Assembly (NCBI GenBank): GCA_015179025.1
Contig: WHUX01000232.1
Coordinates: 1 to 64,000 of the forward strand
Length of the DNA: 64,000 bases
DNA from: Terfezia claveryi
Taxonomy: Eukaryota > Ascomycota > Pezizomycetes > Pezizales > Pezizaceae
Direction: 5' to 3'
Part shown: positions 4,456 to 56,202 of the stretch, one piece after another
How the letters are laid out: every line of letters begins with the position of its first letter
Numbering within the stretch: position 1 is the first letter of the stretch
Translations under genes and position numbers: made by a program
Notes under the pieces: model-generated
The model's database searches: none
Seen by the model: the letters and a program-made list of their open reading frames with translations, nothing else
Told to the model about the DNA's origin: nothing

Positions 4456-5063
4456 GGCAGATTTATTTCCCCTTCTGTGTTAGGAACTATAAATCTGGTC
4501 TTTCTGGGAGTTTCTTCTACTAATTTCTTAATATCTTCGGGTAACATAGTTAACCGTCTCGACCTCTTAGTCTTCTTACTAGTTCAGATGCCATTATGTC
4601 TGATTTCGTCGTCTGTCCGCAACCAAATGCAGCTGGTTATGCGATACGATCGTCGAGTTACTTTTCTTCTTTGGCACCTTTTTGTGCTGATGGTGTGGTG
4701 GCTGATGATCCTTATGATCTCCGTTCGACTGACGGTTCTGTTGGCTCGGTGGCTCACGAGGCTGGTGAGGCTGGATGTCAGGATCCTGATGTTTCTTATG
4801 GTCCTGGTTTTTCTTTGTCTACTGGTCTAGAATCTAGTTCTAGTTCTTCCGGCAAGAGTATCACTTTTTCTGCTTGGTGTGTTGAGGTAGACGTTGGGGG
4901 CGCAGAGGTATTGGTAGAGATGTCTGGGCCTAAGGAAGGTTTTGATGGAGGTAATTCTTTTCTGGAGGAAATGGCTGCAGTGGAGGCAGCGAGATTTGAG
5001 CCTTGGGATTGTGACGCTTGGTTGTTTAGACCAATTATTCCTAGGACCTGGGGGGCCGGTTTT

Positions 5064-7126: not shown

Positions 7127-8626
7127 CCTAATGCCCTCCGTAGTGATGATCAGTCCCAGATACTTGACCTCCTACATATGAAACTCACATTTCTCGGGCT
7201 TGAGGTTCAATCCGGCTTGCTCCAGCTTTTTCAACACCTGCTGGACATGAATCTTGTGTTCTGCTAGGGTATCCAAATAAATCAAGATATCGTCAAGGTA
7301 AGCCGTGCAGAACACATCCAAGAAGTCTCGCAGGGTGTTATTAATAAAGTGTTGGAAAGAGGCCGGGGCATTGATTAAGCCGAAGGGCATGACATTGTAC
7401 TCGAAGTGGCCATAGCGAGTTCAGAAGGCCGTTTTCCACTCCTCCCCCTTGGCAATCCGTACCAGGTTGTATGCCCCTCTCAAATCCAGTTTGGTGAACC
7501 ATTTGGCCTTGGAAAGCCTGGCTAATATCTCCTGGATTAGAGGCAGGGAGTACCTGTTCTTGACCATTATCTCATTCAGCCCCCAATAGTCCACATATAG
7601 CCCAAGAGAACCATCCAATTTCTTGATGAATAGTACCGGGGCGCCCGCTGGTGAGGAGCTGTGCCGAATAAAGCTCTTGTTGAGGTTTTCCTCCAAGTAC
7701 ATCTTCAAAGCTTCTAGCTCTAACCGGGACATTCCGTAGAGGGGCCTATAGGGAGGGGTCTTACCCTCTATCAGTGGAATAGTATGGTCATAGGGTCGGT
7801 TGAGTGCGAGTTTCTCTGCAGCCTTTTCCAAGAACAGATCAATGAACTCGTAGTATTTATCTGGAACTATGGACTTCCACTCCTCCTTAGGCCGCATTTT
7901 ATTGATCTCCAGGTTCACCTCATATATAGACAGGGCATGAGCTTTCAGCTTGTACCTCCTGGTAAGGTAAGCGAAAGCCCCTACTCCAATAAAGCTAACA
8001 TTCAGAGGTTTTTGGGGACTCAGGGGCATAGAAGAGACAGGGGAAACCGAGGGCACAGGGGATACCGGGGGCACAGGGGAAACCGGAGGAATAGTGGCAT
8101 TGAGGTGTGCAAGCAGCAGTACCACCTGAGTCGGGTGGATTATTGGGGGTAGCAATGCGCACAGCCCAGTCACAGTAGTTTTTGGATCCCCACAGTATTT
8201 TTTGCAATAAGTGCTGTTGAATCGCAAGGTGTAAGAGCTGAAGCTGACTGATACATCGTGCATCCTAAGCCAGGGGATCCCAAGAACAATTGGGTACTTT
8301 AGCTTGGTTACGAATATTGGGAGATTTTCCGAGTAATTACCCATGGCACTGGGCAGGCACGCGAGGTCGGTAATCACTCCAGAAGAGATAGGGCGGCCGT
8401 CGATAACATCAAGAAGGCGGGGAGTCTTTAGCTTGGAGGTTGGTATAGAGTTTTTACTGACGAAGGTCTGGTCAATGAATGCTATTCCTGAAGCACCATA
8501 ATCTATGGGAGCTGATGTAACTACTGTTTTATCATTGAACTTGACAGTTATAGGTACAACGAAGTGCTCGCCAAACAGGCGAGACTCATCAACAGACATA
8601 GATGTAGGCAAAGAAAATGCAGACAA
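7127..8626 (-). pseudogene. G3 protease and reverse transcriptase
   Basis: From 8626: a retropepsin-like domain with PIDYGASGIAFID, where the usual Ser/Thr of DSG/DTG is Tyr, then YPIVLGIPWLRMHD. A Pro/Val/Ser linker follows (8100-8020, a short in-frame minisatellite). The reverse transcriptase has [52 protein letters not shown] and [10 protein letters not shown], so the catalytic aspartates are present. A stop at about 7421 (TGA for CGA) and one at about 7172 (TAG for CAG) interrupt an otherwise continuous frame; both fit C-to-T change. Confidence 0.92.
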
Positions 8627-13135: not shown

Positions 13136-13407
13136 TACAACCCAATGATTGACTAGTCAGTTATTACCATTGCTTTCACCTCTGGATTTTGCCATACCTA
13201 TTGCCTACCAATAGTGTGTGCATCGGCTCGAGTCGAGGTGAGTTCTACTACTATTTATCCTACTCAGTACCGACTCGCACCAATGCCCATTCTTCCAAAG
13301 CCAACTTGCTGCCAACTCGGCGACTACTCGGTGATCGACCGAGTCCTCGCCAAGAATTAGTCACTCATGTTTCACCTCGGTCTTGGTTTTGTGTTTTCTC
13401 TATTATC

Positions 13408-13550
13408 TGTCACGGAGCACTCCTCCTGTCACGGATCCGTCCTCCTGTCACGGATCCGTCCTCCTGTCATGGATCCGTCCTCCTATCACGGATCCATCCT
13501 CCTGTCACGGATTGCCCCGCCTGTCACGGATTCCTCCTCCTGTCACAAAC
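13408..13550 (+). repeat. 19-bp array of TGTCACGGA at left end of GH
   Basis: Eight units at 13408, 13427, 13446, 13465, 13484, 13503, 13521 and 13542, almost exactly 19 bp apart, consensus TCCTCCTGTCACGGATCCG. The last units run into the 245-bp repeat. Confidence 0.92.
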
Positions 13551-13743
13551 TAGAACTTTTCCTTCCCACTCAATCCTTACCACCATTTCTCAACTGTGTT
13601 CTACTAGTGGCTAACCTTCCATCCATTCCCCTGTCGTTCTCCTGTATAATCTTACCCTGCGTTGCGTGCTAATGTGAATTACATTCGTTGATACCTCATC
13701 AATTTCTGCACACTCTGATTCTCATAAAACGAATCGCTTTAAT
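13499..13743 (+). repeat. 245-bp direct repeat, left copy
   Basis: Matches 25020-25264 in the same orientation without a gap, with about 13 differences by eye, mostly transitions. Both copies end GAATCGCTTTAAT, after which the sequences diverge. 13744-14109 holds no gene that I can see. Confidence 0.93.
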
Positions 13744-15045
13744 TCTACAAACATAGAAACCTAAACTAACTGACAAATTCCCAATACTCATGTCTAAACA
13801 AATCTCAATATCCCAAGATCGAGGTAAAGTAATTCTCTGATCACGCTTATACCGCCCTCTCACACAAAACCGGCCCTCCTACATACCATCAAAAAGAAAG
13901 CAAACTGAATCAAAAAGTAACTCCCAACAGAAATAGATAAAGAAATGTTGCCCATAAAATCCTCAAAACTCTAGCTGTCCCATATAACAACTAAAATAGT
14001 AAACCTAAATGAAGAAAGTACTCCTAACATGGAAAAAAAATTTTCCCTAGAACCTGCACTAATACTTACCTACTAGTATACCCCACATGCCATCAACACC
14101 CCTACACATTCATACTTTGTAGTTTCTACGCTGCGTAGGTCGCAGTTTCTTCTGAGACCTGCTTGCCATCGACGGCATCAGACTCACGGACTGTGATAAA
14201 CGGTGCTTCCGAGTACTTCGATGCGGAGTTGAAGGAGATGGTGTTTCTGCTTGCTCGCACAATAGACTTCGATAGAACCAGTTGGACATACCTGAGGTAG
14301 AATCTTCTGTGAAACTATGCGATGGGCTGGCATTCTCGGACGCTAAATCTGCCAGGTTATTTAGGAGGTACTCGTCCATTATCCAGCTACCAGCTACTTC
14401 CGTGTCACAATTTGTATCTGAATCCATGTCCGTCTGTCCCTGAACGGTATCCAGAGACTATGCTACCATGTGGTGAAGGAAGTCTGCATCATAGCTGAGG
14501 GCTTGTTTCTCCAGTATTACCTCACCTTCATCTAAATTAGCTATACTTTCTTCTATATGTGCTGGTCTAATTTGTGCCTCTGGGGTTTCGTATTTCGCAT
14601 GTGCAGCATCCCACGATTTGGTCAATATCAGCGCAGTTATCATCTGCTGACCTATTCTATTGCATCGGTACGGCAAAATATCTCGAGCACTGCTGAATAT
14701 TCGCTCTACTGGGCCAGATGTGAGTAGAATGCTCAATATATCCCTCGCCATTCGTTCCAGCGTGGGATATTTATTAGCATGCACCTTCCACCAGGATAGA
14801 GGGCATTTCTCATTCAGTGTTGTTACCGGATTCGCTAGGTATCTTTTGATTTCTGGCATATTCTCCGATTGGCTTGTAGTACGCTCTTGTAGTCGACGCA
14901 TTATATAGGATTGTTCTCCATCATCCACTTGTATGTTATGAACCTGGGCTTCCAGCATGTACTTGGCGTAATTATGTTCAAAATAATCTTCGAACTGAAC
15001 CCTAAAAAGCGAATTTGGTAAGAATTATGTTTTTCTGTATATCAC

Positions 15046-15150
15046 GGATGGTCTCCTGTCACGGAAAATGGTGTCACAGAAAATGGTGTCATGGAAAATG
15101 GTGTCACGGAAAATAGTATCACGGAAAATGGTGTCACGGAAAACACATGG
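15046..15150 (+). repeat. 15-bp array of TGTCACGGA in transposase intron
   Basis: Seven tandem units of type TGTCACGGAAAATGG, with variants TGTCACAGA and TGTCATGGA. It lies between the exon ending near 15190 and the acceptor near 15010 of the hAT gene (minus strand), so it is probably intronic. Confidence 0.85.
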
Positions 15151-15392
15151 GCCAAAATAGTCATGTGCTGATGGAATTCATATGTACTTGTAATACTCCG
15201 TGTATGAAATATAGTCCCCCTTCTGCTGTGTACTACTTGGATCTTGGATATTGAGATTTCCCCAGTCGTTATACAAGGATAATTTCTTAGACGGATCAAG
15301 GATGGTTGCAAGGTTGTAGATGAGAGATTGTTTTTCGGTCCTAGAATAATACTTCTTGAAGATCTGCTGACATGCTTTTGTCGCGGAGAGAA

Positions 15393-16071
15393 TGTAATGG
15401 AGAACGTTATCTCATTGCTTATATAATCGATTATATACTTTTGTATTTCCTATATTACTACTATGTTATGTAACTAAGCTCTCGGTTGAAGGACTAGCCT
15501 TCTACTACCTCCTATTGCTTTATAAGCGTCTATAGCACGCGAAGTTTGCCATGGGAAGTTCCATGGCACTTGCTATATGAAGACACCCTCATTATGGCCG
15601 CGTGACCTCTGTTTAAAGGCGTGTGAGTCACTACTATGGCCATATGACCATCGTTTATGGCGTGTGACTCATTACTATGGCCACATAACCCCTTTAGTAC
15701 AGCGTACCACCTTCTGGTGTGCCACCCTTTATTGTATTTATTTCCTTAGTTATCAGATCTCAGACGAGTATAAATAGGCCACTGGATTCCCTCTGGAATC
15801 CACAGAAAGACAAGAAGCAACCAAGTAAGAATTCAGAGCAAGCAAGCCTATATTCCGATCAAATCAAGATCATATAGCTTAGATAGCACAAATCATATAA
15901 GATAGATTACACCAGTTAATTACTGTTCCCTTTGGGAACATCCCACATAGTAATCTCCCTACTCTTCTGAGGTCTTACCTCAGCAGAACCGAAATACACA
16001 AACGTCCGTGCCTACGGATATAGATTGTATAAACGGTACCAAATGAATACTGTCTAGTACCATTCATTACA
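15393..16071 (+). repeat. Solo LTR of G1 inside the hAT gene
   Basis: 679 bp, TGTAAT...ATTACA, inverted relative to the LTR at 5425-6103. Flanked by 5-bp duplications GAGAA (15388-15392 and 16072-16076). Removing the LTR and one GAGAA restores a continuous transposase frame across the site (APGFL then SATKACQQ), which proves both the boundaries and the duplication. Internal G1 sequence is absent, so recombination between LTRs removed it. TATA box at 15769-15776. Confidence 0.97.
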
Positions 16072-16497
16072 GAGAAACCCTGGAGCCCAGGTAGGATTAG
16101 CTGAAAGTTTACGTATATGTTTCCGCTGTTTTTCTATGTAGTCGAAGATGTCATTGTAGATAAAGAATGCATTCTGTATGGTCGTATGCTATCCTGTAGA
16201 GATAGCATGAGTGTAATCCGATAAAGGTTTCAGGAAAATAGTAGCCTCCTGAACTTGGTTCCACTCTTCTTGACTCAACCATAACTCTGAGTACTTGCTC
16301 TCTGTCGTAGATAGAGTGATCCATTACTCAATGTAGCACTGGAGCCTCAATATTCGAGTAAGTATTTCAAAGGTTGAGTTCCAGTAAGTTTTGACGTCCT
16401 GGATGAGCACCATGGGCGCATGGGAATCAGTTTGGAGTTCCTTGAATTGTGCCAGGCGTTGTGGGCTGGCTACTATAGCCTTACAGAGCTCCCGAAC

Positions 16498-16600
16498 CTA
16501 GACAAATGTTAGCAATAGGATTCCGTGACGCATATTAGCCTTTTGTGACATATCCGCCATTCCGTGACATCTTTATTGAGCAGCTCAGAAGATGACTTAC
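16498..16600 (-). other. Transposase intron carrying TGTCACGGA motifs
   Basis: 103 bp on the minus strand: donor GTAAGT, branch GCTAACA, acceptor TAG. It joins exon FARSVCK to VRELCKAIV. It contains three copies of TGTCACGGA or close variants, seen as TCCGTGACR on the plus strand. Confidence 0.85.
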
Positions 16601-17941
16601 TTTGCAAACAGATCGTGCGAATGTACCTGGAGTATAAATCTGCAGTGCTCTGATTGAAGACTCAATAGCAGGGGTGGATGAGGCAGTATCATCATTATCT
16701 GGGTTCGACCTGAGTTCTTTCATAAACTGGTTGTTTACTAGCGCAATCACATGTGCGAGGCAGGGAAGTCGATATTGCTGGAGGTCCCATTTAGCACCGA
16801 ATACATTGGCTTGTAAATGCTTAGCCAATACTGCATTGACACTCGCGTTGTCCAAAATGATGGCCAAGACTCGGTTCGAAATGCCATATTCCCGAATTTA
16901 ATTCCCTAGCTGATTACCCAAGTGCATAGCATTATGAGCTTCCCCACCTAGGTACTGAAATCCATTCGTATGTTGGCACAGCTGCCAATCCTGGTCTATA
17001 TAATGGAGTGTTGTGCCCATGAACGCTAACTTGTTTGGAGAAGTCCAATAGTCTGTAGCGAGGTGGAGGAATGTATCTTCCAGGAGGCTTTTTTGAAGCT
17101 TCTGTTGAACTTCAGTGGCATAGTGATGTATGCTCCGGCGAAGTGTTGTCGCACAGGGGATATTAATCCCAGATCTAAAAAATTTCAGGAGATGCTGGAA
17201 CTGCAGATGTTCGATGGTTCGGAAAGGTAAGTTTGCACCAATTACAGTTTTCATGAGTTCATGTTTAAAGCGATCATCACTAAATTGCAATTCTGGGGAT
17301 TGTGCAACTGCAGGTGTTGTCTACTTGTAACGTGAGCCTATGCCCAATTATTGCAGGTAGGTACGAATTATATAATTACCTTCCCAAACAGGGTTGAAAT
17401 GTCCTGATTGTTTCGCCCACTAGCAGAGCGGCACCTACTCGAGCTGAGATGAGTTCTCATATGTGTCGTACCCATATTAAAGGCACTAGGGTGTTGCAAG
17501 GTACCCTTCCAAGCTAAGCAAAATATGAATAGCTCACTGCTGTGAATCTTAGCCCCTTGTCCGAATTGGGCCCAGTTTGCTGCTGTTCGGAGCTTAGAAT
17601 CCCATCGGGGTGGGTTAATACTATTACTTCTTAGATCTTTAGCCAGATTGTCGCGGAGCTTGCCTGCCCACTTGGTCATTTCCCACCATGCATCAAATGG
17701 CGCAGATTGTTTGGCTTCCCACTGGAAAGCTGTTCCGCCAAATATTCTGGTGAGAGTGGAAACCATTGGGCTCGATTGACGTATGAGCACACTTGGAGAT
17801 AGAGATATGTTGGAGTATGGGGCTAGTAGTGCAAGTTCGTCTGGCTATTGTGTTCCTGGGAGTTGGCGATAATAGATTTGGAATGGCAGTAGGGAAGAGA
17901 GGCCTATTTATTCACATTCTGAGAGCATTTGGGGTATGTTA

Positions 17942-18010
17942 CGAATAACGTGTGCTTGTCACGGATAACGTGTGCTTGTCACGGATAACGTGTGCTTGTT
18001 ATGGATTCTA
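17942..18010 (+). repeat. 20-bp TGTCACGGA array upstream of the transposase
   Basis: Three tandem units GTGTGCTTGTCACGGATAAC (third altered to GTTATGGA). It lies between the hAT gene start (17790) and the end of the next minus-strand gene (18084), in a promoter-like position. Confidence 0.9.
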
Positions 18011-18083
18011 TGGGAGACATTTACAAGGTACCTGCGACGCTTTCCTTAATAACCCAAACCTATCTATACATAAAATACGTCTA

Positions 18084-18976
18084 TCAATCATGCCGTAGCA
18101 TATCAACAGCACGCCAAACCCAATTCCAATCCAAGTGCGCGATCATCCATTCATTCCAAAATAGATCCACAATGTCATCGTGGACATCATCTGAGTCCTC
18201 TGACCTGTATGGTGAGAGCTCACTTCTAGGCTCAAAGCATCCATCTGGCTCTGATATATTGTCAGGGATATTGGTCAAATCTAGTTGGAGTATGCTGGAT
18301 CTCAATGGCCAATTGGGGCTGTCTGTAAGTTGCAAAATCTCGAGAGGTCTAGACATAATTAGCCTACCGCGCTATCTATGTGCAAGGATTAGTAAGATAC
18401 CTTCTTGAAGGCTGAAGTCAGACCTCTTGCCCACAACATAATACTGTTATCCTAGGTGGGGGATGCCATTGTACCGGTATATAGACAGGATGCTGAATGA
18501 TTCTGCTGTCAGGGATCTGGTAGGTCTGGGAGAGTATCTACAATAGGTATGTTAGCACTCCAATGTTGTAACGCATACAATTAACTTACTGATGGGTATC
18601 GACAATCTTCACATAAACCCCATACCTCTCCCTCGCCAGTTAGGTAATGGTGGAAAAGGGTAATCCACAACAAATCATACATAGTATAGTCATCTAGGTA
18701 AAAGGGATCCCAAGTCGTCTCTGGACTCCTATGGATACCCAAGGGGAGCAGTAAATCATACCGATCAATCCAAATCCTCTCTAGAAGCTCCATGGCTACA
18801 ACTCGGGATACAATCTTGTTGGGGTCAAATCGGTCTATAACCAACTGTCTAGACTAGTGTGTTACCATTTCCGTTCCACGTAGACTAAGGAACTATCGTA
18901 GCCCAGCAGTGTCTCTGCAATGCTCTCGGAACTCTTTGAAACCGAGTTTATCTTCTGGATTGTAGTATACTGCCAT
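18084..18976 (-). pseudogene. GH cargo gene 1, spliced, unknown function
   Basis: Start ATG at 18976 (MAVYYNPEDKLGFKEFREHC). The frame continues through two TAG codons, where CAG is likely, into VIDRFDPNKIVSRVVAMELL, LLLPLGIHRSPETTWDPFYL and LWITLFHHYLTGEGEVWGLC. A canonical intron follows at 18589-18538 (52 bp: GTAAGT, GTGCTAACAT, GTAG). A second probable intron begins at GTATCT near 18405 and ends about 18355, giving a last exon with acidic DLTNIPDNISEPDG and DDVHDDIVDLFWNEWMI. The acidic, Trp- and Leu-rich protein resembles nothing I recognise. Upstream is a TATATATAG box near 19060. It lies between the transposase and another cargo gene, both on the same strand. Confidence 0.55.
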
Positions 18977-19269
18977 ATTTGTGTAGTAGTCTGGTTGGCA
19001 CAATGCCCGTTGTGAAGCTGATATGGTCAGTGAGAATTACAACCCCGATGAACTATATATAAGCAAAACTCCAGATGACAGTTCTGGAAAGAATCCCTAA
19101 ATGGCAATGTCCTCTTTTGGTAGGTTGTCTAGTTACGTCTGATTCTGCCTTAGAATTAGTGGACAAAAGTAGACTACCCTACTCCGCAGGTAATACTAAT
19201 TGTATCTGAAGGACCTGGCTTGCATTAGTCGTGGGAAAGACAGGCATGACCCACCTGGGATACGGTAAA

Positions 19270-19352
19270 AGATTCGTGACAACACATCTGTGACAAGATA
19301 TCCATGACAAAATAAGCCATCCGTGACAACATAAAATATCCGTGACAAGAAA
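19270..19352 (-). repeat. TGTCACGGA cluster
   Basis: Five copies or near-copies of TGTCACGGAT (seen as ATCCGTGACA), 14-20 bases apart, on the minus strand between cargo genes 1 and 2. Confidence 0.88.
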
Positions 19353-20007
19353 AAATATATATGACCACATAAGTTTAGCATAAGCTACCCCGCCCAAATG
19401 GAACTACCATCCTGATCCACTCCAGCCTGGTATTGAACCGCCACCTTCGTCTATAATAGTACCATATCTACGAAAGCGATGGGTCGATGGCATTACAGCG
19501 ATTGACCAGTCAATGGGATGGACTGGTTATTGTCAACCTATGTAGTTGAGGTCGAGGCGTGCACTGATACACTTTGTTGTATACTATAAGAGTTAGTTTA
19601 GCCAGTAGAAGGTAGGCTGGGTGAAGCGTTCTATCTGTCTCATGTGATAACGGTCAATACATCTTCTCAAAAGTATCCGTAATCCTGATATAGTCTAGTC
19701 ATTCACATCCCATTGACCCATCAATTGCTCTACTAGCAATAATGTCATTCTTTACTTGCAGAGGTATAGGTAGTCTGCTTGCATGAGCCTCCTTGTGAGG
19801 TACAATGGGTCAAGGGGTCCAGGTCAAGCCAAGCCAGTTCCGAAACAGGTAACACATACTTAGGGATGTCTCAGGGAGTAACCAGAGATGTTTTGGGGCA
19901 GTAGCTTTGGCCAGGGTCTGCTGGGGCCAGATAAATTTCCTGTGTCCCCACCTTCTACCACTCGATTAACTTCCGTCCTCTATTATCTTCATCTCCCTAG
20001 CCTTTTG
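19353..20007 (-). other. Possible further exons of cargo gene 2
   Basis: The minus strand has coding-like pieces (LYLTRRLMQADYLYLCK near 19790) bordered by GTAAAG and GTATGT donor-like sites, but I cannot chain them into a gene. No other feature seen. Confidence 0.25.
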
Positions 20008-20345
20008 TCATTCTGCATCAAGCCACCTCCTATCCTTTATTACTATGCCACAAGAAAGTATACCAGCTAATTCGACTATCAGGCAAAGAGGTGAAATTCT
20101 AGGGTCAAGGTATGACTTCCATACTTTTTTGCTTGCCCCATATGATATTGCGTACATGTCCCATGTTATTTGAGTAAGTGCGATAGCCATGTGGGCTTGT
20201 TCCATTTTGCGCGGTTCCACTGAACAGATGATGATAATCGTTATTTTCCTGTTACCTTAAGCAGGTCATGTTAGAAGCGCGTGGAAAACACTCGTGCCGC
20301 AAGGTCGTATAGTTCCTCCTGCTGGAAACTGATCTGCGGTAAGGA
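20008..20345 (-). pseudogene. GH cargo gene 2, spliced fragment, unknown function
   Basis: Exon 20345-20256 (FQQEELYDLAARVFSTRF, with TAA where CAA is likely) and exon 20219-20008 (EPRKMEQAHMAIALTQITWD, MYAISYGASKKVWKSYLDPR, then two hydrophobic stretches PLCLIVELAGILSCGIVI). Between them is a short intron-like gap (GTAACA...TTCAG, 36 bp). Upstream at about 20398-20346 is a GTGAGT...CCGCAG intron-like piece. No family recognised. It may be part of a larger gene running to 19400. Confidence 0.4.
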
Positions 20346-20490
20346 ACAGGAAAAGGACGTATAGCGGTATTGTGTGGTAACTCACACTTAATTTGACATG
20401 GTATTACCGGCTTGCAGCTAATTCCTTTTCACCCAAACTTCTAGTGATTATCAAACCCAATACCAAGTGCGAAATCAGTTACATTGTCCA

Positions 20491-21000
20491 ATGGTAGAGG
20501 TGCCAGCCACCCCTAGTGAAGCCGAAACTGAAGGAGATAATGAGAGGGGGGTTTTGTAGGAACTAGTGGTGGAGATGCAGGAGAACAATCCTGAGCCAGG
20601 GGTTGAAAACAAAGAGAATGAGAAGCCTCTCTTTGTTAGTCCAAGTCCCAGGCAATCCCCATACTCGCCATTTGAACATTCCCAACCTGAACAACCTTCT
20701 CCGTCATTTGACCCCCCCCTGTTATTAACCCAAGAAGGGTAAGGTGGTCTCAAGAGCGGTCATTCCGGCCACACCATGTTCGCAAACAAAAGCGATAGCA
20801 AAGGTAGCAGGAAGCAGGAGCCATGGAGAAGGTTGCTGTGGGGGGAAGTCTTATTATTGACATTGGGCCAGGCTCTTCTGATTTTCATTTTGGCCCGATA
20901 TCGTTCAATGTTAACCAAAATTAAACCACCAATATATTCATGCGTAGACTTGACTGCAGGTAAAATTCACAATGATGGGTATACGCATCGTGGTGATGCT
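20491..21000 (+). pseudogene. GH cargo gene 3, plus strand, acidic start, unknown
   Basis: Starts ATG 20491 with MVEVPATPSEAETEGDNERG. After one TAG (CAG likely) an acidic, Pro/Ser-rich stretch (ENKENEKPLFVSPSPRQSPY) runs to a GTAAGG near 20740. A second piece at 20830-20965 reads MEKVAVGGSLIIDIGPGSSD then FHFGPISFNVNQN, ending at a GTAAAA donor. The pieces are in the same strand sense as cargo gene 4, and an intron with GTATGT at 21184-21317 follows, so cargo genes 3 and 4 could be one gene. Divergent from cargo gene 2 across about 90 bases. Confidence 0.4.
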
Positions 21001-21183
21001 AGTCACGTGCCCATGTTCGGTTAATGGCATCCAAGTTTGCTTGTAAACAAAGAATGAATTCCTTTATTTGCACGAACAGAGGTTTTTGGTGGTCATCTTC
21101 CATTTATCTGCAAATTCTAAGGAATTGTCAGCCCTTCAATAGTGATTTCTATCTATATAATCTGCAGTGAAGATAACGAAGGG

Positions 21184-21420
21184 GTATGTATTCCAAAGCC
21201 ATGTCACGGAGGCTGTCACGGAGGATGTCACAGATGCTGGGATGGAGGTCGTGTCCAGAAATTTGAAGTCGAATGAAAGTTAGCTTATTCACTGACTATT
21301 ATTTATCTCAATCACAGACATTCCCGTCTAAATAACTCTCAGAACCAAGACGTATGTTTTGCAAAATCGTGTCACGGAAGTTGTCATAGAGGTGTTATGG
21401 AGGTCGTGTCAAGGGAACGA
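21184..21420 (+). repeat. TGTCACGGA clusters in intron-like sequence
   Basis: 21184-21317 is a 134-bp intron candidate (GTATGT, CTGAC, CACAG) with four motif copies at 21208-21260. A second GTATGT at about 21353 is followed by three more copies (GTGTCACGGAAG, GTCATAGAGG, GTGTCAAGGG). Confidence 0.75.
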
Positions 21421-21474
21421 GGTTGAGCCCAAAGTGGAAAGACTACTGATGAAGTTTGTGATTAAGTATTCGCA

Positions 21475-23055
21475 ATGCCAAACCGTTCTGAGAAGAAAAA
21501 GACAACTGGTAAAGCATCAACCAGCCCAGCACCAGAACCTCCCATACAGAAAAAAAGAAAGACAACCCTAGGAGCGCCAGCTAGCCCGGTTGCGAAGATG
21601 CTGACAACTTGCATAGAGCATGTTCCCAAAAAAAGGAAGACAAGAGCAGAATTAGCTCACCCAATTGAGGATGTTCCAAGAAGAAGGACAAGAGCCGAAC
21701 TAGCCCTCATCCCACCCCCAGTTGAGGATGTTCCAACAAGGAGAAGGACAAGGGCCGAACTATCCTTCTACCCACCCCCAATTGCAGATGTTCCAACAAG
21801 AAGCACGCCAAGAGCCAAACTTGCCAAGGATGTTCCAAAGAATCTTTATACCAAATATGCCAACTTCCTATGGGGCCCTCGAGAGTTTAATCCAGACACA
21901 GAATTTAGTGGGGGGAGGAAGGCATGGGGCACCTCCACTAATCCCCATATGAAAAAGATTCAAGAAACACACAAGAAACTGCTTAGACCCCCGCTGTCGT
22001 GGGAGCGGGCCAAGGACTGGAAAAGGCAAAAGGTAAACAGGGTACTCAAAGCAGGGATTAAGGAGGCCGAACACGCCACTACTACTAGAAGAGCAATAGG
22101 CATCTGAAGGGCCTCGTTAACCGATATAGAACGAGGCAACTTTGAATGACTGGTTCAAAGGACTTGCAACCTGATGTTTATCCACAAAAAGGCATATATT
22201 TTGTACCAGTGGCATCAGCTATCCGACGAGCAGAAGCGAGTCTATTTGGAATTACAGGAGCAAGAAGAGCTCCCCGAATTCAAAATTCCCAATACTGAGT
22301 TGGAAGCAATAGGGGTAAAGTCAGTGCAGCAATTAGCAGTAGTCATTAGCATTGTGCCGATCAACCGCCAAGCCTATGCCTGATTTGATGAGCCAACCGA
22401 ACGTGACACAGTGTCTGGGCACGGGACTAGTGATACAGGGCCCAACACACCACTAGCAATTGATAGCAGGATGTAGACTATACAAGAGGAGTTGGCTAAG
22501 GGGGGTGCCGACGATTGCTTAAGTGATGAGGACATTGGGACGGATATTGAAGAGGTAGGTACTTCCTCGTGCTTGATCTAAATCTGAGAACTTTACCTAC
22601 AAGTAGATAGAACTACAATGACAAACCCAACAAGCAAGATGATGACAAAGATACAGGACTATGGGGCCGATGGGTAGCTTTGGAGGGTTCTTCAGAAGAA
22701 GAAGCTCAATCAACTGAATCCGACTCTAGCAAACATTGAAAGGTGTTGTCAGTACCTAGCAAAGATAGGCCTGCCTAATTGCTTCCAAGCGACACCAAAG
22801 ATGGGGACTATAGGGATTCCACCAAGGAGAATGATTGCGATGTCAATGAACGAGTATATCAGTGGATTTTACGTCAAGGTGCTGCGATGACAACAACCGA
22901 CAACAATAAAGATGACAAAGGTGAGAAGCAAGTCGCAGGCGATGATGAAAGAAAGATGAGCCAGCAGATAAGAATGAGGGTGAGTATGATAATGAAGGTG
23001 ACAATTACAGTGAGGATAGGGAAGAAGCAAACTAGGGAGGAGAATGGGAACTAAT
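21475..23055 (+). pseudogene. GH cargo gene 4: basic repeat protein with acidic tail
   Basis: From ATG 21475: a Lys/Arg/Pro-rich N-terminus with four imperfect repeats around RTRAEL and (I/V)EDVP (residues about 60-125), which may act as nuclear-localisation-like or DNA/RNA-binding sequence. Then YTKYANFLWGPREFNPDTEF and PPLSWERAKDWKRQKVNRVL. The frame passes TGA at 22105 and 22135, then FIHKKAYILYQWHQLSDEQK, and further stops, to an acidic region (DDCLSDEDIGTDIEE). After a GTAGGT donor near 22555, acidic coding texture resumes (KPNKQDDDKDTGLWGRWVAL; KEQ/DDK-rich to 22960). The basic head and acidic tail suggest a chromatin or nucleic-acid protein, but that is an inference. No known family. 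It lies 640 bases before the H3-like gene, same strand. Confidence 0.5.
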
Positions 23056-23070
23056 TTGGATTTCTTTTTA

Positions 23071-23145
23071 GTGTCACGGATGGAAAACATGTCACAGATG
23101 GAAAACATGTCACGGATGGAAAACTTGTCACGGATGCCGTGAATG
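23071..23145 (+). repeat. TGTCACGGATGGAAAAC array
   Basis: Four tandem copies of a 17-bp unit (TGTCACGGATGGAAAAC) just after cargo gene 4. The stretch 23146-23690 is AT-rich with repeated TTTTTTTGAT/GTGTTTTT phrases and no gene. Confidence 0.9.
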
Positions 23146-23696
23146 GTCGTTCGTTAACAATTTTCTGAGGTTTAATTGTATCTACTACTTTTGTGTTTGA
23201 TTATGTATTTTATTGTGTCTTTACTTGTATGTTTGTTGGATGACTACAGCCTAAAGCAAGAGGTATTTCGTTTTTGTGTTGTTTTTGGATGTCTACAGCG
23301 TATGCGAGAGATATTTTCTTTGTGTATTTTTTTGATGTCAACTGAGTACGCTAGGGGGTATTTGTTTTAGAATTATGTGTAACTCTACGAGGTATTTTCC
23401 TTGTATGTTTTTTTTGATATAAACATGCTAATGTGGCGTAACACTAAGGTAACATTTTTTTGTTACTCCCTTTGTTATGAGTGAGCTAATAGATGGGGAT
23501 GCAGATAAACAATAAATTATACTTTGTTGTAGAGCTCATTGCTTGAGATCAGTCTATTTTTGGTCCACTTCGTGCCCTCGGGAACATACATATATAAGCA
23601 AACTTACTGTCCCAAACCTCAGTTCCTTCAATTTGCAACCTTTAGTCAGTGTGGATATTACACTTACTCTTTTGTACCCCCGAATACATAGATATA

Positions 23697-24560
23697 ATGG
23701 CCAGAACGAAACAACGAGCTAGGAATGTCAAGACGATAGTACCCCCTGCGAGAGTACCTACAGTAGTCCCAAAAAAGAGAGAGGTACTCCCCAAAAAGAA
23801 AAGAGTACTCCCTAAAAAGAAAAGGGTAGTCCCATGAAAGAGAAGGGTAGATCGGCGTAACAACTCCCCCCAGTTCAATTTGAACTTAGAATGCTAAGTT
23901 TGCTGTCAGTGGCAATTATTAGACAAATTCGGAGACAACAGGCCAGCAGTCAATTAATCATTCCGAAGACTGCGTTCCAACGGTTATGTCGAGAGATCAT
24001 ACAGGATGTTAACACTGAATACAACAGTTATCCTACGATACTCGGCGGGTGGACAAATATAGAGAGAATTGGCATCATAGTAACAAATGCCCTCCAAGAG
24101 GCTACGGAGGCATACCTCCATGAATTTTTGACAAGTAATAAAGCATATATCATGAGAAGGTCAGGGTGAGACTAACCAGGTGTATAAAATAGCAATCAAC
24201 CTGTATGCAACACAAAGCGGAGACCGAAACCCACCACGACAAACAATTCTATGAAGGGATGTGGTGTTGTGGCGTCAGGTGGAAGCTAATCGGCTATCTG
24301 GGGGTAATGTGACCTACTGCCCTGCACCCCAAGCACCAACAGTACTACCATCGCCCTCATCATCCTCCTCATCATCCTCCTCATCATCCTCCTCATCATC
24401 ACCGTCGTTACCATCATCACCCTCATCATCATCATCATCATCTTCCTCATCGTCTTCATCGTCACCATCAGTTTTGCTGTCGACTAAATTACCAGCATCA
24501 GTTGGTGCCCTGTCATCTCCTGCAACTCCTCCTTCACCGGCATCAGTTGGTGCTCCATGA
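23697..24560 (+). pseudogene. Divergent histone H3-like gene with one intron
   Basis: N-terminus MARTKQRARN matches the H3 tail (ARTKQTARKS): Lys4 kept, Lys9 replaced by Asn. The tail then has Pro-Lys-Lys-Lys-Arg heptads. The histone fold reads IRQIRRQQASSQLIIPKTAF then QRLCREIIQDV (H3 [24 protein letters not shown]), a loop 1 about 11 residues longer than H3, NALQEATEAYLHEFL (H3 GALQEASEAYLVGLF), and after a canonical 58-bp intron (24135-24192: GTAATA, GACTAAC, ATAG) TINLYATQS and TILxRDVVLWRQV (H3 TNLCAIHAK and TIMPKDIQLARRI). A Ser/Pro-rich tail runs to 24560. Damage: TGA at about 23835 and at 24252 (both CGA-type), and one frame slip, most simply at the C6 run near 23867. It would pack DNA as a nucleosomal H3 variant; centromeric or other specialised use is a guess. 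Confidence 0.85.
24350..24475. repeat. ATCATCCTCCTC hexanucleotide-type microsatellite
   Basis: Runs of CATCCTCCTCAT/CATCATCAT. On the plus strand it extends the H3-like frame as poly-Ser; on the minus strand it encodes an Asp/Glu tract in the 139-codon ORF 24733-24314 (Gly/Ala/Asp-rich). I think the minus ORF is a shadow, though an acidic protein cannot be excluded. 24740-24910 is T-rich without a gene. Confidence 0.7.
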
Positions 24561-24911
24561 TCTCCTGCAATACCTCCTTTGCCGGCAATACCACCTGCTT
24601 CACTGGCGATACCACCTGCTTTGCCGGCACCACTTGTACCTCCGGTATGACCTACACTTCTAGCATCGCCTACATTGTCATCGCGTTCTGACGATGTATG
24701 GGGAACAGAAGGAAGAGGCCAGGAGTAGGGCATTTGACTTTTTCTATAGGGTTATTTTTTTGGGTTGTGTTATGTATTTGGGGGATATATATCTTGCGAT
24801 CAGCTTCGTTTTTTTTTATTTTATTTTTTTTTTAGGTTATATTAAGTTGTGATGGTAGGAAATGGAATGTTAGGAGATGTCATAATCTGGGTGAAACGTA
24901 ATTTGCCAGAA

Positions 24912-25020
24912 GAGACAATTCCGTGACAACTTGAGTTAATTCCATGACAATTTAAGGCAATTCCGTGATGACTATGGGACAGTGAGAAATGGTGATGATT
25001 CCATGACCACGGATCCGTCC
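24912..25020 (-). repeat. Inverted TGTCACGGA cluster at right end of GH body
   Basis: Plus strand shows TTCCGTGACAA, TTCCATGACAA, TTCCGTGATGA and TTCCATGACCA about 25 bases apart, ending in ACGGATCCG. These are degraded copies of the motif in reverse orientation, facing the forward copies in the adjacent 245-bp repeat. Confidence 0.82.
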
Positions 25021-25264
25021 TCCTATTACGGATTGCCCCGCCTGTCACGGATTCCTCCTCCTGTCACGGACTTGAACTTTTCCTTCCCGCTCAATCCTTA
25101 CCGCCATTTCTCAACTGCGTTCTACTAGTGGCTAACCTTCCGTCCATTCCCCCGTCGTTCTCCTGTATAATTTTACCCTGCCTTGCGTGCTAATGTGAAT
25201 TACATTCGTTGATACCTCATCAATTTCTGCACACTCTGATTCTCATAAAATGAATCGCTTTAAT
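25020..25264 (+). repeat. 245-bp direct repeat, right copy
   Basis: Partner of 13499-13743. At several differences this copy has G or C where the left copy has A or T, as if the left copy had suffered more C-to-T type change. 25265-25458 has no gene but holds the ACTCGG-rich tract. Confidence 0.93.
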
Positions 25265-26045
25265 CCAAGCAATCCGTGGTGTGTTCAGTTAAATTTGAAC
25301 CGAATTATATAAGAAACTGGTCCTCTAGTCGTGCAATATACATCAGTAGATGACACTAAGGCTTGGTGAGTAGTCGACGGCTACTCGGTGCTGGGCCGAG
25401 TAATTCAGAGTAACATATACCCAACTCGCCGAGTTGGAGGCTTGGGCAAAACTCCACCCATCAGCAAAAATAATATTTGCGTCCTGTGCGTCAGACGCAT
25501 GTAACGCACGAGACGATAACTCAAAATCAGGACGCGAACGCTTGTTGCGCCAGCGTCCTGACGCACTAGGACGTTGCTCACACGCCTGGGACGCACCACC
25601 AATTCTTGGCGGTTGCACTCGCGTCTAGGATGCACTGTGACGTTGCTCACACGCCTGGGACGCTACACCAATGCTGGGCAGTTGCTCTCGCATCTGGGAC
25701 GCACTTGGACGTTGCCACCGTGCTTGGGACGCACTGGAACGTTGCCCCCTCGCCTGGAATGCAACACCAATGCTGGGCTCTCGCGCCTGGGATGCACTGG
25801 GATGTTGCTCCCGTGCCTGGGACGCAAGCATACATGCAACCTTTGTCCCGACGCACTTGGTAGGTAAACACAACCCGCTTACAGCTTGCATCTGCTACGT
25901 GCTTACACCAGCCAGCTATGTAGCCAGGTTTGCAACCTTTGAATATGCATGCAGCAGAAATATTGATTGTATTCGCCAATTATTATATATACAGAGAGGT
26001 ATTTAGCAATAGATATGTACACGGAACATGTATGCAGCAACACTC

Positions 26046-26140
26046 GCTCTAACTCTCGTTGTATCCATCGCTCTAACTCTCGCTCTAATGCTCGCTCTAA
26101 TTCTCGCTCTAATGCTTTCTCTAATACTCGCTGTAATATG
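26046..26140 (+). repeat. GCTCTAA minisatellite in FB1a left arm
   Basis: About eight 12-bp units (GCTCTAACTCTC / GCTCTAATGCTC); the inverted partner is at 27752-27900 (GAGCGAGAATTA / GAGCGAGCATTA). Related 12-bp arrays sit in FB1b. Confidence 0.9.
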
Positions 26141-26454
26141 CTGGGAATAATGAGCAAAGGGAAAAAGCGCGGGAAAGTGAAGTATATATACAGGAAAACC
26201 ATAGTTGCCAAGGCCGACTGCTAAGGCCGACAATTTAGACTTTCCGAAGACAATGAGATAGGGGATAATAAGAGAAGTGGCATGACAGTGATCAATGGCG
26301 CTCAGCCCCCCTTTCGCACGCGGGTGCCGTACTACTCAATGCCTGGCCTGGTAATAGTCATATTGGGAAATCGTAGTCATGGTACTGCGAACGAGACAAG
26401 TACTGCGATATGTGCGGAGTTCACGCTTTGTGATATATCCCGTAGGAATTCATG

Positions 26455-27428
26455 CATGCGCAGGCTGATATAAGTAATATATATGTGGGAGAAACTCGTG
26501 CTTTTGGAGACATATATATATATATGCGAGAAATCCATGCATTCGCAGACTTATATATATGTATGCGAGAAATCCATACATTCGCAGGCTTATATATATA
26601 TATGCGAGAAACTCGTGCTTTTGGAGACTCATATATATATATGCGAGAAACCCATGTGCTCGCTACTTAAATATATATATGCGAGAAATCCATGCATTCG
26701 CGGGCTTATATATATATATATGCGAGAAACTCGTGCTTTTGGAAACTTATTTATATATGTGCGAGACACTCGTGCTTTTGGAGACTTATATATATATGTG
26801 TGAGAAACTCGTGCTTTTGGAGACATATATATATATGTGCGAGAAACTCATGCTTTTGGAGACATATATATATATATGCGAGAAACTCATGCTTTTGGAG
26901 ACTTATATATATATATATATGAGAAATCCATACATTCGCAGGCTTATATATATATGCGAGAAACTCGTGCTTTTGGGACATATATATATATATATGTGAG
27001 AAATCCATACATTCGCAGGCTTATATATATATATGCGAGAAACTCGTGCTTTTGGGACATATATATATATATATGTGAGAAATCCATACATTCGCAGGCT
27101 TATATATATATATGCGAGAAACTCGTGCTTTTGGAGACTTATATATATATATGCGAGAAATCCATACATTCGCAGGCTTATATATATATGCGAGAAACTC
27201 GTGCTTTTGGGATATATATATATATATATGTGAGAAATCCATACATTCGCAGGCTTATATATATATGCGAGAAACTCGTACTTTTGGGACATATATATAT
27301 ATATATATGTGAGAAATCCATACATTCGCAGGCTTATATATATATATGTGAGAAACTCGTACTTTTGGAGACTAATATATATATATGCGAGAAACTCGTG
27401 CTTTCGGATACTTATATATATATGCCCG
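26455..27428 (+). repeat. AT-rich minisatellite loop of FB1a
   Basis: Alternating units TGCGAGAAACTCGTGCTTTTGG and GCGAGAAATCCATACATTCG, each followed by 10-22 bases of (TA)n, about 22 in number. All face the same way, so the loop is not itself palindromic. Open frames here (IYIYM, RETRAFGD) are translations of the repeat. Confidence 0.95.
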
Positions 27429-28480
27429 TGAATGCATGAATTCCTACGGGATATATCACAAAGCGTGAACTCCGCACATATCGCAGTACTTGTCTTGTTC
27501 GCAGTACCACGACTATGATTTCCCAATATGACTATTACCAGGCCAGGCATTGAGTAGTACGGCACCCACGTGCGAAAGGGGGGCTAAGCGCCGTTGATCA
27601 CTGTCGTGCCACTTCTCTTATTATCCCCTATCTGATTGTCTTCGGAAAGTCTAAATTGTCGGCCTTAGCAGTCGGCCTTGGCAACTATGGTTTTCCTGTA
27701 TATATACTTCCCTTCCCCGTGCTTTTTCCCTTTGCTCATTATTCCCAGCATATTACAGCGAGTATTAGAGAGAGCATTAGAGCGAGAATTAGAGCGAGCA
27801 TTAGTAGAGCGAGAATTAGAGCGAGCATTAGAGCGAGAGTTAGAGCGATGGATACAACGAGAGTTAGAGCGAAGCTTAGGCCAAGGGTTAGAGCGAGTGT
27901 TGCTGCATACATGTTCCGTGTACATATCTATTGCTAAATACCTCTCTATGTATATAATAATTGGCGAATACTATGAATATTTCTGCTGCATGCATATTCA
28001 AAGGTTGCAAACCCGGCTACATAGCTGGCTGGTGTAAGCACGTAGCAGATACAAGCTGTAAGCGGGTTGTGTTTACCCACCAAGTGCGTCGGGACAAAGG
28101 TTGCATGTATGCTTGCGTCCCAGGCACGGGGGCAACATCCCAGTACGTTCCAGATGCAAGATCAACTGCCCAGCATTGGTGTTGCGTCCCAGGCGAGGGG
28201 GCAACGTTCCAGTGCGTCCAGATGCGAGAGCAACTGCCCAGCATTGGTGTTGCATTATAGGCGAGGGGTCAACGTTCTAGTGCGTCTAGACGCACAGGAC
28301 GCACAGGATGCAAACTCGCGTCCGGACGCTTGGTGGTACGTCCTAACGCACATTTTTTTTTGCTGATGCCATCGGCGTGAGTCTTGACGAGGCGGCACGG
28401 GGAAAAATCGGCTCGGTGCGCACACTACCTACCAACTTACCCTCTGGTACCGAAAACACCTCCCGTGACTAACCCACTTC

Positions 28481-54660: not shown

Positions 54661-56202
54661 TCAATTGCTATAAGCCAGGTCGATAGCAATTTCATTCGCT
54701 TTTTCGGGAGCAAGAGATTTTTGTTGAATGTTTTCAGAAGATGGAAGCCTATATCTTAGTCCAAGAACTATTAAAGGTTTGTTCTTATTTATATTGGGTA
54801 CGTAATCATACCCGCTGAAAACTTCTTGTGGTATGGTAGATACAGTCTCATCATCTGAGGACTCTTCTTTCTTTATCATGTCGTATTCACTTTCTTCATT
54901 TAGGATGCCCTCGAAGTATGGACAGAAGATATGGTGTCCAAGTTTTTTGGCTCTTTCACAACATTTGTTAAAGTCACAGTTGACATGCTTGAAATTAATA
55001 GCTCTGTGAGAAACCATATTGTTCTGAGTAGAGGTCTCTAGTAAGTGGAAAGTTCTTAAAACATTGGTAAAGATGTTGCAGTTGTAGGTATGGTTAGGAA
55101 GATCAATGCTATTGGAAATATAATCGTCCTCGGTAGTAGGAGTGTCCAAGCATTTATGCTTTCTTGATAGAGCATCTGCTATCAAATTTTTCTTTTCTGC
55201 AGTATGCTGTATATCTGTATCAAATTCTATTAGGTAATCTTGCCATCGCCTCAATTTTTGACTTGCAAGTATTTGAGTATGGAAAGTTACTAATAGTTTG
55301 TGGTCTGTAAGAATAGTGAACTTATGACCTCTTAATTGTACTTCAAAAAATTTTAATAAGTTAATAATCGCTAATAATTCCTTTTGAAAGGTAGAATAAT
55401 TGAGTTGTGCTAGATTAAATTTTCTAGAGTGGAAGCATGATAGTCTGATATATGTTAACGGTCCTTGACCTATCCACAATCCTAGTTCTATGTCACTAGC
55501 ATCATAGACTAAATAGTTGGGTTTGGTAGATTCATTATTCCAGGGTTTTAAAACATGTGGGGAATTCACAATTTCCTTGAGTTTTTCAAACGCTGCATTA
55601 TAAGTATCTGTCGATTCCCATTTCTTTGTTTCTCCTTGCAGTTCTGACAGAGTGCTTGCATACGATGCCAAGTCAGGAATAAATCTGCTGAGATAATTAA
55701 TGATTCCAAGGAATCCTCCTAGATCCTTTTTTCTTGTAGGAGTTGGAAATATTAATATAGTAGTCCTCTTCTTCGGGTCTATATGTAATCCATCTGATGT
55801 CAAAACATGTGCTAAGATTTCCAATCTTGGAGTAAAGAACTGGTATTTGCTTTTTTTGAGATAGAATTTCTCGTCCTGTAGATGTTGAAGTACTTTCTTT
55901 AATAATTCTACATGTTCTTCATACATTTTGGAAAATATAATAATATCATCAATATAGATGATTAAATTTTTATAGACTATGTCTTTAAAAATTTCATGCA
56001 TAATGCGAACCATGGTAGCAGGTGTGTTATGATCCCCTTGTTGCCTAAATCTACTTCTGAAATATACCATATGACATAAAAAGGTAGAGTATTGCTCAGA
56101 TTCTTTATTGTTCCTAATATTAAAAAATCTATCGGCTAAGTCGAGCTTAGTCCAAATGGGATTCTCCGCTACTAGTTCAATTGCTTCATTAATATCTGGC
56201 AA
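54661..56202 (-). CDS. G1 copy 2: open reverse transcriptase-RNase H frame (513 codons)
   Basis: Longest open frame in the window. Palm NPIWTKLDLADRFFNI; RMIMHE-type helix (TMVRIMHEIFKDIVYKN); IIYIDDIIIFSKMYEEH (catalytic YIDD); thumb FLGIINYLSRFIPDLASYAS; RNase H YDASDIELGLWIGQ, QKELLAI and ILTDHK. Then the Cys/His cluster VNCDFNKC and HHIFCPYFEG (54990-54917) and an acidic end. The true frame begins further up (TIPK...EEARHINDC at 56290-56220) across a TGA, so it is a pol fragment, not a separate gene; the listed start is internal. Several substitutions at conserved sites (DLADRFF for DLADGFF, DHKLLV for DHKPLV) suggest it is no longer active. Confidence 0.92.
   Translation of the reverse strand: MPDINEAIELVAENPIWTKLDLADRFFNIRNNKESEQYSTFLCHMVYFRSRFRQQGDHNTPATMVRIMHEIFKDIVYKNLIIYIDDIIIFSKMYEEHVELLKKVLQHLQDEKFYLKKSKYQFFTPRLEILAHVLTSDGLHIDPKKRTTILIFPTPTRKKDLGGFLGIINYLSRFIPDLASYASTLSELQGETKKWESTDTYNAAFEKLKEIVNSPHVLKPWNNESTKPNYLVYDASDIELGLWIGQGPLTYIRLSCFHSRKFNLAQLNYSTFQKELLAIINLLKFFEVQLRGHKFTILTDHKLLVTFHTQILASQKLRRWQDYLIEFDTDIQHTAEKKNLIADALSRKHKCLDTPTTEDDYISNSIDLPNHTYNCNIFTNVLRTFHLLETSTQNNMVSHRAINFKHVNCDFNKCCERAKKLGHHIFCPYFEGILNEESEYDMIKKEESSDDETVSTIPQEVFSGYDYVPNINKNKPLIVLGLRYRLPSSENIQQKSLAPEKANEIAIDLAYSN

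Follow-up and report, generated by a model that had tools for sequence, protein, structure and literature searches.

The window, by which we mean the whole 64,000-nucleotide stretch of Terfezia claveryi DNA that was analysed, contains an altered histone H3 gene (H3L) at 23697-24560 on the forward strand. The gene lies within a hAT transposon, a decayed member of an old lineage of large elements that carry a set of three genes: a transposase, a gene for a central protein, and H3L. The features of this element are as follows, from left to right.

13204-13211, no strand: left copy of a perfect 8-bp target site duplication (CCTACCAA)
13212-28427, forward: the whole hAT element, recognised by inverted ends and the flanking target duplication; it contains two later insertions
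13212-13224, forward: left inverted end (TAGTGTGTGCATC), differing from the right end at 2 of 13 bases
14458-15024, reverse: hAT dimerisation region of the transposase (PF05699, 64.5 bits on 14458-14958, cut-off 21.4)
15178-17844, reverse: further transposase frames, interrupted by the insertion at 15393-16071
15393-16071, no strand: later insertion of 679 bp, ends TGTAATG/CATTACA, flanked left and right by GAGAA, absent from copy L035
21475-22395, forward: central gene, conserved part 21841-22395, with 3 TGA codons in that part of the window copy
22594-23016 (approximate), forward: acidic frame that follows the central gene, its position transferred by offset from copy L032
23697-23856, forward: H3L exon 1, basic tail, with a stop codon in the window copy
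23857-23909, forward: H3L intron 1, 53 bp, GTAACA..TGTCAG
23910-24134, forward: H3L exon 2, alpha-N, alpha-1, long loop 1 and alpha-2
24135-24192, forward: H3L intron 2, 58 bp, GT-AG
24193-24560, forward: H3L exon 3, last helix and serine-rich extension, with a stop codon within the helix in the window copy
25455-28372 (limits approximate), no strand: later foldback insertion near the right end, with inverted arms
28415-28427, reverse: right inverted end, 11/13 bases against the left end
28428-28435, no strand: right copy of the perfect target site duplication (CCTACCAA)

Elsewhere in the window lie retrotransposon pieces with reverse transcriptase and RNase H domains, all on the reverse strand (841-1530, 7421-8626, where the match is below cut-off, and 54661-56202), and Rfam and tRNA scans of the 64,000 nucleotides gave no match.

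H3L comprises three exons and two introns. An earlier note on this sequence had recognised an H3-type tail start and a 58-bp intron, and both readings hold: MARTKQ begins at 23697 and is accompanied by a histone-fold exon, and splicing out 24135-24192 yields a frame whose product can be aligned to the final helix of H3. That note had also supposed a frame slip in the tail, which we found to be a 53-bp first intron joining tail to fold; this intron has equal place and phase in two related lineages of the element, A2 and B, ruling out a slip. It measures 62 bp in A2 and 69 bp in B (68 bp in L049), and its GT has been lost in two modelled copies (L031 and L046), while intron 2 keeps its position and phase across all four lineages described below (A, to which the window belongs, A2, B and C). 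The window copy of H3L is dead: exons 1 and 3 contain one stop codon each, that of exon 3 ahead of the end. The search for intact copies that had been proposed was successful, as copy L032 of lineage A has an open H3L frame, and C355 and C62 are among the open copies. The protein carries a low-complexity C-terminal extension whose reading frame varies among copies, so the true end of H3L is unsure.

The placement of H3L in a hAT element was borne out, since the gene lies inside 13212-28427 and its order and neighbours recur in dozens of copies. The 8-bp duplication, the inverted ends and the dimerisation region, which is the only part of the transposase to pass a curated cut-off, together make this a member of the hAT superfamily; the further transposase frames gave matches below cut-off to hAT-like_RNase-H (E 0.0072) and DUF659 (E 0.047, in copy L035). 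Both ends recur in the genome. Among the matches listed to the first 309 bases of the element, 32 of 47 (window included) start at base 1, and the remaining 15 include 7 secondary matches produced by an internal repeat. The right-end pattern, allowing up to 3 mismatches, occurs 70 times, a count that includes the ends of related elements, compared to 0 times for a reversed control, and the last bases of the A2 and B right ends agree save for single changes. Copy C355 spans about 11.6 kb end to end, with flanking sequences that differ from one another; two later insertions account for the greater length of the window copy. The 679-bp insertion is also matched in contig C52 (L034), and the foldback insertion has arms of up to 393 nt that are 95% complementary and a core of repeats of about 39 bp. 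A subterminal direct repeat of 257 bp (13487-13743 and 25008-25264, 94.6% identical) is present in C355 as well.

Six short stretches of 738-821 bp bear both A ends (C98:85510-86273, C155:3402-4165, C8:24520-25283, C20:146691-147428, C645:29134-29954 and C21:144502-145283). Each is probably a non-autonomous copy that has lost its interior and depends on the A-element transposase for movement. Such copies have no room for H3L, indicating that H3L is not needed in cis.

We found that H3L is a genuine histone-fold gene. Exon 2 alone scores 27.9 bits (E 3.1e-6) against the Pfam Histone profile, whose cut-off is 26.4, and the profile search of the spliced frame that the earlier note had called for raised this to 45.6 bits for A (L032), 44.9 bits for B (L043) and 55.8 bits for the fold part of C (L041), scores that exclude a chance likeness. 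The A-lineage protein also matches solved H3 structures by sequence (best E 7.4e-11). Structure prediction gives H3L no support: modelling exon 2 from a single sequence gave three helices with a mean pLDDT of 63.9, and a Foldseek search of that model against the PDB returned a best E of 2.7 and no histone among the 35 matches listed.

H3L shares the histone fold with host H3 (L002) and host CENP-A (L001) and differs from both in its loops and tails. The two host proteins resemble their counterparts in filamentous ascomycetes. Core H3 is near-invariant in sequence and loop lengths, and H3L departs from it in both respects, with 43% identity to host H3 over aligned positions for the A protein (37% to host CENP-A) and insertions in loops 1 and 2. 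By alignment with H3, loop 1 is longer by 14 residues in A, A2 and B, by 11 in C and by 8 in host CENP-A, which leaves the loop of A, A2 and B 6 residues longer than that of host CENP-A. The earlier estimate of about 11 extra residues falls short for A and B, and the accompanying remark that CENP-A also has a long loop 1, although less so, fits host CENP-A. Loop 2 is longer than in H3 by 5 residues in A and A2 and by 4 in B, and is of equal length in C. These loop insertions may block a normal octamer.

The tails vary between and within lineages. The MARTKQ start of the window copy is atypical in subfamily A, as the other seven readable A tails (L031-L037) begin with MAGTKQ. The A2 tails of L040 and L052 begin with MARTKQ, and B tails begin with MARTKQ (5 of 9), MVRTKQ (3 of 9) or MAKTKQ (1 of 9). 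In H3, ARKS flanks the silencing sites K9 and K27, and ARTKQ flanks the K4 site of active chromatin. None of the five tails compared (L032, L040, L039, L043 and L041) contains ARKS, two contain ARTKQ (L040 and L043), and the lineage C tail (L041) has GRKT.

H3L occupies at least 93 places in the genome, none closer than 1.5 kb to another, in at least four lineages; all such counts are lower bounds. A2 is 76-78% identical to A in DNA over 441 of 621 query bases. In A, A2, B and C alike, we observed the order transposase (reverse), central gene (forward), H3L (forward), with the full order in C copies on C27, C90, C143 and C572. H3L lies within 5 kb of 63 of the 95 central-gene matches (downstream on the same strand in 62, in another arrangement in 1, none in 32), and for 47 a transposase in opposite orientation lies no more than 15 kb upstream (another arrangement in 5, none in 43). 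Copies are not independent of one another, and among these 95 matches some are pieces of one gene and some lie near contig ends, which explains part of the cases with no H3L or transposase nearby. Identity to lineage A drops in parallel for the three genes, from 81% in A2 to 58% in B and 27% in C for H3L, from 85% to 67% and 33% for the central protein, and from 77% (C45) to 64% (C773) and 41% (C27) for the transposase, which fits co-inheritance of the set. Two candidate loci were set aside. A possible host-domesticated H3L at C66:125812 (L052) proved to be an A2-type copy that breaks off within the fold exon and continues as unrelated sequence, and C68:221701 (L053) reads as another histone-fold protein, presumably one resembling CENP-T.

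The central protein of the window is 61% identical to that of a B copy. It gave nothing above cut-off against Pfam, NCBIfam and PDB sequences, and no known chaperone domain among them, and its structure model is poor (61.0, pTM 0.23). The frame that follows the central gene is rich in acidic residues (48% in L039, 34% in L032 and 29% in L041) and is also present in B copy L042; it may be joined to the central gene by splicing. In B, a further open frame of 178 codons lies upstream of the central gene (L043 1281-1814, forward strand; also in L042) and has no Pfam match.

We then compared codons between one A copy (L032) and one A2 copy (L040), and found that both genes are under purifying selection between these lineages. 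Over 116 codons of the H3L histone fold, with the single L040 stop codon skipped, dS was 0.79, dN was 0.11 and dN/dS was 0.14 (bootstrap 0.07-0.25), and over 183 codons of the central domain, with two L040 stops skipped, dN/dS was 0.12 (0.07-0.20). Shifting the A-A2 codons into either of the other two frames gave no comparable pattern and brought in stops. Between more distant lineages, H3L gave dN/dS of 0.16 (A-B) and 0.17 (A2-B) at dS values of 2.3 and 1.9, which are near saturation; for the central gene the A-B, A2-B and A-C comparisons were saturated and B-C gave 0.28 (interval 0-0.59). The window copy of H3L against L032 gave 0.40 from few changes. We regard the identity of H3L and the selection on it as nearly certain. 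Among the findings that would speak against its reading, the earlier note had named copies elsewhere without the gene together with a host locus explaining the piece as chance capture; the recurrence of H3L in dozens of copies, with gene order and neighbours kept, together with purifying selection, excludes such a capture by one element.

Decay is superimposed on this constraint. Most singleton changes, 180 of 221 among six A copies and 253 of 309 among eight B copies, are C>T or G>A, and per site these changes are most frequent at CpG and CpA, a pattern suggesting that decay is RIP-like or methylation-driven. Two B copies (L042 and L043) are 99.7% identical over 2.9 kb, indicating that B moved recently.

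Since the gene set is old, its order is kept in diverged lineages and the A-A2 comparison shows constraint, an H3L serving the element is the simplest reading. We consider it probable, judging from these sequence comparisons, that H3L works for the element itself, although many H3L copies contain stops. Transposon silencing runs largely via marks on host histones, and strongly acidic stretches are found in many histone chaperones. We infer that the element would make H3L, which would replace H3 as the partner of host H4 and form nucleosomes on element DNA, and that the central protein would perhaps deliver H3L as a possible chaperone. Nucleosomes of this kind would offer host enzymes no ARKS sites to mark for silencing, while ARTKQ, with the K4 site of active chromatin, would be retained in some of their tails; the element would thereby resist heterochromatin. 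As an explanation of the whole, an element-owned H3 that would make nucleosomes resistant to silencing is the best we have, and we hold it with about even confidence. The silencing-resistant nucleosome as the specific function of H3L is a more tentative proposal, against which counts the absence of ARTKQ from the usual A tail (MAGTKQ), from L039 and from C. The explanation as a whole is also weakened by the loop insertions, the lack of a known chaperone domain in the central protein, the central-gene matches with no H3L or transposase nearby and the short copies that do without H3L.

H3L and the central protein could instead be parts of the transposition machine, packaging or bridging excised or target DNA and not forming lasting chromatin. 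The joint inheritance of the three genes would be expected of such parts, as would the differences between H3L and H3 in loops 1 and 2, both of which touch DNA in the nucleosome. However, the ARTKQ tail tip in A2 and B would point to chromatin readers, and to our knowledge related hAT transposases work without partners of this kind, so we think this role unlikely.

A derivation of H3L from CENP-A, with a centromeric role such as steering insertions there or disturbing kinetochores, appears more improbable. The long loop 1 recalls host CENP-A, which also gives the best alignment for B (57.0 bits versus 50.8 bits for human H3), and C scores slightly higher with CENP-A sequences. For A and A2, H3 is the better match, at 52-54 bits compared to 45-49 bits for host CENP-A. 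Lineage C has LPFSRL, as CENP-A does, and the peptide TGRKTIVG occurs both in its tail (L041, about 4677-4700) and in that of host CENP-A, with 20 of 24 bases identical, a hint of possible exchange or capture. A tryptophan in loop 1 is a CENP-A feature, and it is present in all four aligned CENP-A rows and in no H3L row. Tail comparisons against 1000 shuffles give mixed signals: the B tail resembles that of H3 (0/1000 shuffles) and not that of CENP-A (143/1000), the C tail resembles both (1/1000 and 9/1000), and the tails of A, A2 and L039 resemble neither. A tree of H3L, H3 and CENP-A has long branches and no starred branch, and favours neither ancestry. A viral source of H3L or the central gene was also set aside, as the viral contigs searched contained no confirmed relative of either (patterns matched 3 and 9 stretches, none confirmed); phages contained no H3L relative.

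The statement in the earlier note that H3 genes are rarely carried by transposons has to be read beside two published hAT elements with H3-like genes, both in Dothideomycetes and both read as captured host H3 (Manning et al., 2013, PMC3538342; Dhillon et al., 2019, PMC6710886). As in those elements, the H3-like gene here lies between hAT ends. The Pyrenophora tritici-repentis element carries an H3L that belongs neither to H3 nor to CENP-A and for which ESTs are reported, and it also has a central ORF; however, it is 5.6 kb long compared to about 11.6 kb for C355, it forms one family of near-identical copies where we found several diverged lineages, and its authors suggest that H3L is possibly drifting, where we measured constraint (PMC3538342). 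The element of Pseudocercospora fijiensis and relatives resembles ours as a large hAT (9.5-9.9 kb) with an 8-bp target duplication, many H3-like copies and C-to-T decay, and one of the two H3-like copies per element has a 16-residue insertion; in contrast to ours, with its two introns, several open copies and measured constraint, those copies are described as all RIP-inactivated and intronless, and are read as a captured transcript (PMC6710886). That H3L is likewise a host H3 gene or transcript captured by a hAT and copied along without function, as the published cases were read (PMC6710886, PMC3538342), is consistent with the many copies bearing stops and with the C>T and G>A decay, but is very unlikely given the A-A2 constraint at a dS of 0.79, the fold exons open in three diverged lineages and the fixed order with the central gene.

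A literature search that drew sparsely on subscription papers and did not extend to bioRxiv preprints found no further report of an H3-bearing hAT. New here are the deep divergence of H3L under purifying selection and a co-inherited partner with an acidic neighbouring frame, as well as the long loop insertions and the tails without ARKS. The element-serving H3L could even be half of a private chromatin system, in which an element H3 without ARKS and an acidic chaperone of the element would have been selected together since before the A/B/C split and the published captures would belong to one old clade; we put this forward as a possible but doubtful extension.

If H3L does serve the element in resisting silencing, a transposon that brings its own selected histone and a constant partner would be a direct counter to silencing, and the published H3 captures would be re-read from accident to strategy. 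The far-diverged H3L set could also be used for testing what the nucleosome tolerates.
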